Part shown: one piece after another, positions 57,156-62,411 of the stretch
Numbering within the stretch: position 1 is the first letter of the stretch
Layout of the letters: the number at the start of each line of letters is the position of its first letter
DNA from: Thermoplasmata archaeon
Lineage (GTDB): Archaea; Thermoplasmatota; Thermoplasmata; Lutacidiplasmatales; UBA184
Assembly: GCA_027306505.1 (NCBI GenBank)
Contig: DAHUZP010000021.1
Coordinates: forward strand, 62,001-126,000
DNA: 64,000 bases
Direction of reading: 5' to 3'
Notes under the pieces: model-generated
Database searches by the model: none
The model's input: the letters and a program-made list of their open reading frames with translations, nothing else
Told to the model about the DNA's origin: nothing
Position numbers and translations under genes: made by a program

Positions 57156-58163
57156 TCAGCCGAAGGCCTCGAGGGAGGTCTGCGTGCCCGGGGTCGGGGC
57201 CGCGGTGGGCAGGCGGCTCAGGACCTTCTGCACGCGGTCCTCGGCGAAGCCGTGCGCGACGACCAGGACCTCGCGCATCTTCGCGGGATCGGGGGCCGTC
57301 CATCGCAGCCGGTAGTCCTCGGTCGTGGGCGGGTGGAGGAAGAGCTCCCGTACGGCTTCCACCCCGGAGGGCTCGAGCCCGGCGCTTTGGAGCGTCGCCT
57401 CCCAGCCCAGGTGCTGGCCGACCAATTTCATCGCCTTCTTGGGGCCGATGCCGTGGACACCCTCGTTGAAGTCGGTGCCGACCAGGACCCCCACCAGCAC
57501 CAGCTCCTCCTGGGAGATCCCGAGCTCTTCGAGGACCTTCGGGGTCTCGAGGAGCTCCATCACGGTGTCCTCTCCGCGGCTCGCGCCTCGGGCAGCCCCG
57601 AGCCCCCTCAGGAGCCGAGGCGCTCCGAAGAGCAGGGTATCGTAGTCCTCGCTCGCGGCCGCCCACACGTCACCTCGTCGGGCCATCCACGCGGCCTGGG
57701 CCTCTCCCTCGGAGGGCGCCTGCACCCAAGGGACCCCCAAGGACTCCAGCAGGGCCTTCGCGTCGGCGACCATCTCCCGGGTGAGCCGGCTCGTCTGAGC
57801 GGCCTTCTTCCGGGCAAGCTCCAGGTCGCCCGCGGCGAGCGCCTCGTCCCAGGCCGCCTGCGCCCGCTCCTTCACCAGGGAGCGGGCCCTCAGGGTCGAG
57901 GCCTTGAGGTCGGAGGGCTTCCCGTCGAAGACGTAGGTTGGAAGCACCCCCCGTTCCAGGAACGAGGAGGTCCGGTAGAGCAGACCCACGAGGTGGCTCG
58001 TCACCCGCCCCTCCGGGTCGGTGAAGGGCTGCCCGTCCGCTTGGCGGATGGTCGCCAGGAACTGGTAGAGCATGTTGTAGGCGTCGACCGCTATCCGCTT
58101 GCCCTTGAGCTCGCTCAAGCGCAGGTTCGCCGGATGGACCAGGTCGCGCAGCTTGACTCCCAC
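57156..58163 (-). CDS. fen: Flap endonuclease 1
   Basis: MGVKLRDLV...KGKRIAVDAYNMLYQFLATIRQADGQPFTD, ALLESLGVPWVQAPSEGEAQAAWMARRGDVWAAASEDYDTLLFG, C-terminal PIP-like TSLEAFG. Confidence 0.97.
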   Translation of the reverse strand: MGVKLRDLVHPANLRLSELKGKRIAVDAYNMLYQFLATIRQADGQPFTDPEGRVTSHLVGLLYRTSSFLERGVLPTYVFDGKPSDLKASTLRARSLVKERAQAAWDEALAAGDLELARKKAAQTSRLTREMVADAKALLESLGVPWVQAPSEGEAQAAWMARRGDVWAAASEDYDTLLFGAPRLLRGLGAARGASRGEDTVMELLETPKVLEELGISQEELVLVGVLVGTDFNEGVHGIGPKKAMKLVGQHLGWEATLQSAGLEPSGVEAVRELFLHPPTTEDYRLRWTAPDPAKMREVLVVAHGFAEDRVQKVLSRLPTAAPTPGTQTSLEAFG

Positions 58164-58266
58164 GGTCCGACCGACGGGGGGCGCTTACTTGAGCGTTCAC
58201 CCGGGAGGCCCAGGGCCCGACGCGGGGGATAATCGGGTTGACGGAAACCTTGACCCGCCCGTGGGC

Positions 58267-59166
58267 ATGGGGTCCGGGAACATGAGCGACCCGGACCCCG
58301 TCATCGTCCCCAGCATCGCCCCCTCCTCCTCCACACCCACCATCGTGGACGAACCGAGCCCGGACGGACCTGGACCGGGCACCCCCTTCCTGGTCTGCTT
58401 CCCGAGCGCGGGGCTAGCGAGCACCATCGTGGGACACCACGCGATCCGGCACCTCAAGCTCCCCCGGGTGGCGACGGTGCGCTCGCGCTACCTCCCTTCG
58501 GCGGCGGTCATCTTCGACAAGCGGCCCAACCCTCCGGTCCGCATCCACGGGAACAGGACCCTCGCCGTCGCGGTCTCCGAGTTCCCCGCCCCCGCCCCGC
58601 TGATGCAGCCCCTCGCCGAAGCGTTCCTGCTCTGGGCGGGGAAGAAGGAGCTCGGCCCCACCATCGTGGTGGAGGGCGTGCTGCGCCACGAGGGGGAAGC
58701 GTCCGGGAACCATGGGGGGACCGCCGACCCGGCGAACGGCCCGACGAGCCCGCCGGTGGGCATCCCGGACTGGGGCAAGGAGGACGTGATGGGGATCGCG
58801 GCCACTCCGGCAGCGGGGCGGCTGCTCGAGACGGCGAAGGTCCCGGTCCTGGTGGAGGGGATCGTGGGCGGTCTCACCGCGGAGCTCCTCAACCTGGCCT
58901 CGATCCTGGACCGCACCCTGGGCGTGGTCTTCGTCCCCACGGCGGAGCCGGGTTACCCGGACTACCATGCGGCGGCGCGCCTCGTCGAGATCCTCGACCG
59001 GCTCGTCCCCGGGCTCGCGCTCGACCCCAAGCCGATGCTGGAGCAGGCGGAGGTGCTCGAGCGCATGATCAAGGATGCGATGAAGATGAACAAGGGGTTC
59101 CCTCCCTCGACCGAGATGGGAGAGCCCCTCGCCGGGACCGCTACGGAACCCTCCATGTACGGGTAG
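58267..59166 (+). CDS. PAC2 family proteasome assembly chaperone-like protein
   Basis: LVCFPSAGLASTIVGHHAIRHLKLPRVATVRSRYLPSAAVIFDKRPNPPVRIHG; VPVLVEGIVGGLTAELLNLA; ends ...PSMYG*. Confidence 0.88.
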   Translation: MGSGNMSDPDPVIVPSIAPSSSTPTIVDEPSPDGPGPGTPFLVCFPSAGLASTIVGHHAIRHLKLPRVATVRSRYLPSAAVIFDKRPNPPVRIHGNRTLAVAVSEFPAPAPLMQPLAEAFLLWAGKKELGPTIVVEGVLRHEGEASGNHGGTADPANGPTSPPVGIPDWGKEDVMGIAATPAAGRLLETAKVPVLVEGIVGGLTAELLNLASILDRTLGVVFVPTAEPGYPDYHAAARLVEILDRLVPGLALDPKPMLEQAEVLERMIKDAMKMNKGFPPSTEMGEPLAGTATEPSMYG

Positions 59167-60614: not shown

Positions 60615-61595
60615 TCAGGCCGCGGGCGGGCGGGGGTGCGGCGGCATCTCGCCGCCGACCTCCAGGAGGATCTCCACCTCATCGGAGGGAGGAAGGACCG
60701 AGGGCTCTCTGTTCTCGTTCAGGCTCGCGACCGCGGGCTCCGGGGTCATGGGCAGGGAGTCAGGCAGAGGGCTGAAGCCGGGGGGCACGGAGGGGAGCGG
60801 CGTGGGCCCGCCCGAGGAGGGCAGGACCGGCGGCCGGTTGATCGGGGCCCCGGCTTCGAAGGCGAGCTGGTACTCCTCCATCGCGGCCTCAGCGGGCACG
60901 ATGTAGCGGTCGTGGACGTGGGCCGCGATCACATCGCCCCAGAGCTGGGCCAGGTGGTTGAACGGCTGGCGCGACTGCGTCCGGGCCGCGACCTCGTTGT
61001 CGAGGACGCGGAGGGTCACGTTGGTCGCAGCGACACGGTGGGCGAACTCGCCCTGGGCCTTCACGGCCTCCAGCGCGTGGTCCGCTCGGCGCCGGCGCTC
61101 AGCCTCGCAGGCGAAGGGCTTCAGCAGGAAGACGGAGAGGAAGGGGGCGTGGCGTGCGGCCGCGTCGAGGACGCTCGGCAGCACCTCGGTCCCGGCCTCG
61201 CCTCCGAGGCTCGCGACGACCGTGACGAAGGTCGAGCCCTCGAACACCCGGTCCAGGTCGCCCTGGAGCTGGGGGAGCGGCTGGACCAGGGGCAGGCCCT
61301 CGGAGTCTAGAGCGCCGTCCTGGGGCAGCGCGACGCGGATCCGGCGGTGGAAGTCCAGGGCCTCGACGACCCGGTCGTCCCCGTTGATCGCGACGGTCTC
61401 CACGTAGCGCATCCCCTGGCGGGCGGCAGCGCGGGCGACGCGGATCGCGCCGCCTCCCACCGCCACCAAGAGGAACCTCGCATCATGGCCGAGACGGAAA
61501 TCGCCGGGACCGGCCGCTCTCGCGGCCCGCTCCGGCGGGATCGCTCGTACGTCGCTACGCGTCTGTTCGGACTGCCTGGCCTCGGACTCCTGCAT
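60615..61595 (-). CDS. Divergent FtsZ/tubulin-superfamily GTPase-like protein with Pro-rich C-terminal tail
   Basis: FLLVAVGGGAIRVARAAARQG...VETVAINGDDRVVEAL...STFVTVVASLGGEAGTEVLPSVLDAAARHAPFLSVFLLKPFACEAERRRRADHALEAVKA; FtsZ-like order GGAG - AIN(T)D - GGxxGT - V..PF..E...R...A..AL..L. Confidence 0.7.
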   Translation of the reverse strand: MQESEARQSEQTRSDVRAIPPERAARAAGPGDFRLGHDARFLLVAVGGGAIRVARAAARQGMRYVETVAINGDDRVVEALDFHRRIRVALPQDGALDSEGLPLVQPLPQLQGDLDRVFEGSTFVTVVASLGGEAGTEVLPSVLDAAARHAPFLSVFLLKPFACEAERRRRADHALEAVKAQGEFAHRVAATNVTLRVLDNEVAARTQSRQPFNHLAQLWGDVIAAHVHDRYIVPAEAAMEEYQLAFEAGAPINRPPVLPSSGGPTPLPSVPPGFSPLPDSLPMTPEPAVASLNENREPSVLPPSDEVEILLEVGGEMPPHPRPPAA

Positions 61596-61644
61596 GTCGA
61601 CCACCCCACGGACGCTCTTCCGACATCTCTTCCCCCGTTCCTCG

Positions 61645-62112
61645 CTACGGTCCCAGGTATCCCTGACGCTCGAGCGTTTGCGAGGCGAGCTCGGCGTTCT
61701 CCACCTTGGACCGTCGTTCGGCCGAGTCGCGCACGAGACCCCGCTGCTCGGCGACCACCTGCCGGACCTTCTCCATCGGGATGCCTTGGCGGACGATCGC
61801 CGCCAGGGCATCCGCGACGGAGGCACCGTTCATCACGAGCTCCGCGTACTCCTGGAGCAACTCCGCCTCTTCCGGTCGGAAGGAGGCGGCGATGCCCTGG
61901 GTGGCCGCGGGGGCCGTGTGGGTCCGGGGCTGGGTGGTCGCGTTCGCTTCGGGGACCTCGCGGGAGCGGCGGGCGAGGAAGTCCTTGAGCGCCTCTCGGA
62001 TGAGCTCCGAGCGCGTCCTGAACTCCCCGCTGACCACGAAAGAGTCGAGGAATTGGAGCTCGCGTCGGGAGCACCGTACCCCGACCCGTTCTTCTTCCTT
62101 CGCTGCTTCCAT
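61645..62112 (-). CDS. Ribbon-helix-helix (CopG/MetJ-type) transcriptional regulator
   Basis: MEAAKEEERVGVRCSRRELQFLDSFVVSGEFRTRSELIREALKDFLARRSREV; typical RHH (R-T-R-S-E-x-I-R-E-A-L). Confidence 0.88.
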   Translation of the reverse strand: MEAAKEEERVGVRCSRRELQFLDSFVVSGEFRTRSELIREALKDFLARRSREVPEANATTQPRTHTAPAATQGIAASFRPEEAELLQEYAELVMNGASVADALAAIVRQGIPMEKVRQVVAEQRGLVRDSAERRSKVENAELASQTLERQGYLGP

Positions 62113-62122
62113 CGCTATCCTC

Positions 62123-62175
62123 GGTTGTCGAACAAACCCAGAGAAGGTTTGTCGAACACGTCCGACACGGTCTAG
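62123..62175 (-). promoter_or_regulatory. Putative operator repeats upstream of RHH gene
   Basis: TTGTCGAACA at 62125-62134 and 62149-62158 (24-bp spacing) plus related GTCCGACAC at 62160-62168. Confidence 0.55.
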
Positions 62176-62186
62176 CGTGGAAGTCG

Positions 62187-62194
62187 TATATAAC
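62187..62194 (-). promoter_or_regulatory. TATA box of RHH-FtsZ-like operon
   Basis: GTATATAAC (minus GTTATATAC), positioned so that transcription would start near the operator repeats. Confidence 0.5.
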
Positions 62195-62411
62195 ATCCGC
62201 GCTGAAATGCGGCGCGTATAACACGCACACCTGCGCTCGTCGGAGCCCCTAGCTCGTCCACGGGACCGCCTGCGCGGGGGAAGGGTGTCAAGGTTGCGTT
62301 CCACTCGCTCCCCGGGAACGAGGCGGTGCCTCAGGGTCCGTCGAGGGAGCAGGCACGGCCCCGCGCCCTACGAGGCGGAGGAAGCTCCCCCGCTTCCGGG
62401 GAAAGGGGTTC

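Follow-up and report, generated by a model that had tools for sequence, protein, structure and literature searches.

A ribbon-helix-helix regulator gene paired with an FtsZ homologue reduced to its GTPase domain in Thermoplasmata

By the prevailing view, FtsZ depends on two longitudinal faces. In its filaments one of them is formed by the nucleotide side and the other, the plus-end face, by the C-terminal side, which is where MciZ, SulA and MinC act (PMC11938149). What can a homologue do that has only one? The question is raised by two minus-strand genes in a 64,000-nucleotide stretch of a Thermoplasmata genome (the window), where a gene for a ribbon-helix-helix (RHH) protein is followed, about 50 nt on, by one for a short FtsZ-like protein (Table 1). 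The host may be close to Lutacidiplasmatales, as its genome has ~70% GC and theirs have ~69% (PMC9287336). This gene pair, proposed by an initial annotation, is real and conserved, as judged from the open reading frames and from the RHH gene lying directly upstream in 34/34 loci on sufficiently long contigs in the GTDB family of the window (f1; genome families are labelled f1, f5, f8 and so on).

The similarity of the short protein to FtsZ is beyond chance. In a phmmer search of the PDB the best hit had an E-value of 7e-8, and the good hits were all FtsZ; the NCBIfam ftsZ profile was matched at 1.7e-6, covering only positions 19-162 of 353, and the Pfam Tubulin profile at 0.0013, which is under the Pfam cut-off. 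Tubulin, however, matched 32/32 family members (best E 1.9e-15), and FtsZ_C (Pfam) matched 0/32 at E 0.01. AlphaFold, run on the 32-sequence alignment, returned a confident Rossmann domain and a long helix H7, with disorder after them; the best Foldseek hits of this model were all FtsZ, in support of the tubulin/FtsZ fold that the initial annotation had supposed. An AlphaFold model of one short protein from another family, f8, likewise stops after H7. The reading frame starts at a conserved ATG (61592) and ends at 60615. The short protein is, thus, an FtsZ homologue cut to the N-terminal GTPase domain and H7, with a Pro-rich, disordered tail attached; sequence and model show that it retains the nucleotide-binding face and H7 of FtsZ and has lost both T7 and the polymerisation face on the C-terminal side. 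The FtsZ-like motifs quoted in the initial annotation are present, and the loss of T7 and the replacement of the C-terminal domain by the tail, which it had noticed, are borne out by the alignment and the model.

A decaying or truncated ordinary FtsZ gene, devoid of function, might look similar, and the degenerate G-box of the window's genus would suit such a history. However, T7 and the C-terminal domain are missing from all family members, so the shape of the gene is not due to a local frameshift, and the same C-terminal truncation was seen in the sampled members of the class. A truncation artefact is ruled out by its presence in all relatives. Furthermore, three congeners, all with the degenerate G-box, give a dN/dS of 0.15-0.20 for the GTPase part, indicating that the gene is under purifying selection. 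With an identical truncation in all relatives and selection acting on what is left, we find decay hardly credible.

The nucleotide-binding motifs are mostly in place. The alignment shows that the family has preserved T1 (GGG/GGA), T5 (PFxxExxRR) and the Asn of T6; its T2 is mostly NCD, with NGDD in the window's genus, and most members retain all nucleotide motifs of the N-domain. The degenerate G-box that the initial annotation had emphasized is indeed seen in the window, but it is not a family feature: most members have GGG-x-G-[TS]-G at T4, GGEAGTE occurs in the window's genus only, and a sister genus shows the milder GGET-x. Being genus-specific, it was discarded as the key feature of the locus. 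The H7 Asp, which in FtsZ contacts guanine, is not conserved in the family and is altered in the window's genus, where a changed use of nucleotide, as the initial annotation had suggested, is plausible. The tail ends in a conserved peptide of the ELTFEV type, which takes the place of the GID peptide through which the C-terminus of archaeal FtsZ binds SepF (PMC8178401). Short FtsZs of other families have conserved end peptides of their own, LDSFL..Y in loci L106 and L107 and DPMF.GFGP.MFG in L071 and L116. Such family-specific ends suggest lineage-specific docking partners.

Table 1. Features of the gene pair and its promoter (positions in the window)
Feature	Position	Strand	Details and basis
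RHH (CdrS-like) regulator gene	61645..62112	-	155 aa; weak Pfam VapB/RHH_1 and NCBIfam CdrS matches; orthologue upstream in 34/34 testable family loci
Short FtsZ paralogue	60615..61592	-	325 aa; GTPase domain, H7, disordered tail; C-terminal domain lacking
FtsZ-like GTPase domain and helix H7 (residues 35-250)	60843..61490	-	AlphaFold pLDDT mostly >90; Foldseek FtsZ hits
Degenerate T4/G-box GGEAGTE	61185..61205	-	Alignment; most family members GGG-x-G-[TS]-G
Disordered Pro-rich tail (residues 251-325), at the place of FtsZ T7 and C-terminal domain	60618..60842	-	AlphaFold, domain search, alignment
Conserved C-terminal peptide EVEILLEV (family consensus ELTFEV)	60657..60680	-	Alignment
Putative RHH operator, copy 1, TGTTCGACAA	62149..62158	-	Promoter comparison
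Putative RHH operator, copy 2, TGTTCGACAA	62125..62134	-	24 bp from copy 1
TATA-like element TTATATA, operon promoter	62187..62193	-	From sequence; relatives have a TTTAAGTA-type element in this position

How widespread is the pair? An orthologue of the short FtsZ was found in 34/37 f1 genomes, as a single copy in 33 of the 34 carriers, and a profile search of the class revealed short FtsZ-like frames in many families, 13 of which are represented among the sampled short genes. An RHH gene lay upstream of 12/13 short genes in a first sample (the exception being a 237-aa gene in L108), of 12/12 examined in f8, and of 19/19 testable ones in a second sample of 20 loci, the twentieth having too short a contig. 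The synteny in relatives, for which the initial annotation had suggested a search, is nearly constant across these 13 families. By comparison, an RHH gene adjoined only 1 of 28 full-length genes at 20 loci, a diverged copy (Fisher 3e-12 versus short genes). In the sample and among the listed hits from the phylum outside the class, open frames are of full-length size save in three hits of 247-299 aa, which may be fragments, since a contig ends at two or more of them. Instead of the lone diverged GTPase initially described, the locus exemplifies FtsZs that consist of the GTPase domain only and form a family across the class, the majority with an intact G-box.

This distribution also bears on a toxin-antitoxin-like interpretation, in which an RHH antitoxin would be followed by an FtsZ-derived division inhibitor. 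The order and spacing of the genes do resemble those of RHH antitoxin operons, and the RHH protein has weak VapB and ParD matches. Type II toxin-antitoxin modules, however, are mobile and patchy, unlike a pair that occurs in 34/37 family genomes, nearly always once, with a recurrent chromosomal FEN1-like neighbour, and we regard this interpretation as improbable. The pair is adjoined by a gene for a FEN1-like nuclease and by one that, by eye, resembles a PAC2-type proteasome chaperone (window 57156-58163, minus strand, and 58099-59166, plus strand); the former recurs near the pair in relatives. Clustering of neighbours was noisy, with spurious opposite-strand ORFs in the GC-rich DNA.

In a tree of 83 sequences, from which the long-branched L069, L108, L112 and L114 and a second f8 paralogue were left out, a single branch (SH-aLRT 99) sets the 57 short sequences apart from the full-length ones. 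A more careful tree that included the long-branched rows and the second f8 paralogue separated the full-length group from the rest with support of 97/97, L108 falling among the full-length sequences. The simplest reading, though not a proof, is that the C-terminal domain was lost once. RHH-linked full-length FtsZs exist in two other families, and a third FtsZ of the window's own genome is also RHH-linked, which suggests that the linkage to RHH predates the truncation. This third FtsZ (L069:9413-10905, contig C83) is full-length and very diverged, and has its own upstream tandem-RHH gene. The initial annotation had considered the pair analogous to CdrS-FtsZ2; the RHH partner stands, and we found no earlier description of the module, but more than mere analogy is indicated, since the arrangement appears to share its descent with that of RHH-linked FtsZ of full length.

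Parts of this picture are known already. The cdrS-ftsZ2 locus occurs in haloarchaea and other archaea (PMC7439475, PMC8406309), and ftsZ2 has been noted to be found 'frequently with parD' (PMC8178401). As in the present pair, an RHH gene there directly precedes an FtsZ-family gene, likely in one operon; the FtsZ here, however, has no C-terminal domain, and the RHH protein is far under the CdrS cut-off, longer, and in relatives carries a second RHH-like segment. FtsZl1 also combines an FtsZ GTPase domain with the lack of a canonical C-terminal domain (PMC2875224), but it has a coiled coil and a helical C-terminal domain in place of the ~75-residue disordered tail, and both FtsZl1 and FtsZl2 are large proteins with other gene neighbours. 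Canonical FtsZ1 and FtsZ2 share the N-terminal tubulin/FtsZ GTPase domain and differ in having the T7 catalytic loop, FtsZ_C and the GGGTG(T/S)G signature, which in the window is replaced by GGEAGTE; the CetZ-type C-terminal domain is likewise absent from the short FtsZ. An FtsZ-like clade from Culexarchaeia and Thermoplasmata, placed between FtsZ2 and CetZ (PMC9723716), is similarly uncharacterised and includes Thermoplasmata sequences; the passages compared mention neither domain loss nor RHH linkage. A literature search that covered few subscription papers gave no account, for Thermoplasmata, of an RHH-partnered FtsZ that is reduced to its GTPase domain. Thus, while the cdrS-ftsZ2 locus is established, as are FtsZ-like families that lack the usual C-terminal domain, the pair of half-FtsZ and RHH appears to be new. 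A half-FtsZ that is conserved, selected and class-wide, and that comes with a dedicated regulator, would amount to a naturally occurring dominant-negative or switch version of FtsZ, and would give a new handle on the control of constriction in archaea that lack a peptidoglycan wall.

The best NCBIfam match of the RHH protein is CdrS (E 7.9e-5), with a score of 22.6 bits where 100 is the cut-off; we therefore describe it as similar to CdrS by sequence and do not assign it to that family, even though the window's gene has the RHH fold and the position upstream of an FtsZ-family gene that mark CdrS. Its wider relatives have a tandem-RHH architecture, detected in 7 of 10 proteins, all from outside the window's family, and in none of the reversed controls. 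The sequence TGT[TC]CGACA[AG] is present 5' of the RHH gene in 33/34 loci, the lone miss probably reflecting a misplaced script anchor, and only 13 further copies occur in the 506 kb of these loci. In most loci the box lies 36-37 nt past the start of the TATA-like element, and the window's clade has two boxes at a 24-bp spacing. In most relatives the box can also be read as an in-frame RHH start (GTG TTC GAC AAA), and its conservation there could be partly coding; in the window's genus, however, it is out of frame with the RHH gene, a point in favour of a DNA signal. Boxes of the form TGTnnnACA are also found ahead of RHH genes in other parts of the class (12 observed versus 0.7 expected from mononucleotide shuffles, in 8/17 loci). 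Given the conservation of the TGTTCGACAA box in the RHH promoter, the pair is likely to be autoregulated, with the RHH protein as the presumed ligand of the boxes. A wider TGTTCGACAA regulon was rejected: the genome has 6 exact sites, 2 of them in this promoter, and the extra sites inspected lack the same TATA arrangement. This check covered the own genome and relatives, the module itself excepted, with reverse-strand sites only partly read.

What, then, would the regulated protein do? We infer a role in division or the cytoskeleton, and the short FtsZ probably serves to control division, not to build the ring. Our preferred scheme, offered tentatively and with somewhat less than even confidence, is an autoregulated two-gene operon whose short FtsZ acts on the FtsZ filament wherever full-length FtsZ exists. 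By binding the boxes in its own promoter, the RHH protein would set the level of short FtsZ. With one longitudinal face only, the latter would be unable to extend a protofilament or to complete the hydrolysis site of a neighbour; its nucleotide face could instead dock on the exposed C-terminal (plus-end) face, so that the filament would be capped or shortened, and the tail peptide might bind a partner. The action would be like that of MciZ, SulA or MinC (PMC11938149), in that the same face of FtsZ would be occupied; those proteins are not homologous to it, whereas this modulator would be built from FtsZ itself. The window's genome encodes two canonical FtsZs over the curated cut-off and SepF, which makes it more likely that the short protein modulates the ring than that it replaces it. 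With the third, diverged FtsZ in addition, filaments should be available to it. In the window's genus, with its altered G-box and H7 Asp, this docking face may be a different one.

Capping fits a host with canonical FtsZ but not f8 (G044, G056, G066, G082, G088, G095, G115, G121, G127, G133, G139, G144 and G223; loci L123-L134 and L140-L147), and two other readings therefore stay in play. FtsZ over the NCBIfam curated cut-off was found in 0/13 of these near-complete genomes, yet 12/13 have an RHH-linked short FtsZ, and most also have a second RHH-linked paralogue without T7. As the short form persists there without such an FtsZ, the capping of a canonical filament cannot be its sole role in f8. 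The near-constant RHH companion across 13 families, including these f8 genomes, the single longitudinal face, and a promoter box that points to local control would all agree with a sensor, in which short FtsZ binds its RHH partner instead of filaments and the nucleotide or division state alters RHH-DNA binding. However, RHH genes adjoin full-length FtsZ as well, where their known role is the transcriptional control of a division gene (PMC7439475), and we consider the sensor rather unlikely. Retention of the short form in f8 would equally suit an independent scaffold that forms its own assemblies, via a non-canonical interface or a tail partner, in constriction, cell shape or another process; the full set of N-domain nucleotide motifs in most members and the conserved lineage-specific end peptides agree with this. 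A scaffold, however, would have to manage with both T7 and the C-terminal polymerisation face gone, and with the degenerate G-box in the window's genus, so that we judge it unlikely.

A bolder proposal, which we hold to be doubtful, makes half-FtsZ with its RHH protein a division or cell-shape factor in its own right throughout Thermoplasmata; in f8 it would, together with the T7-less paralogue, have replaced full-length FtsZ, and the cells would divide without a canonical filament. With its near-complete genomes, the f8 lineage would allow one to test how little FtsZ is enough. SepF was detected in 4 of the 10 f8 genomes tested. Snf7, sought as a sign of ESCRT-III as the f8 divider, gave no match, with a model that stays under its cut-off even in Sulfolobus. 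The near-complete genomes of another family, f19 (G061, G070 and G118), gave no match to FtsZ or SepF, and one of them, G118, has a Snf7/ESCRT-III match.
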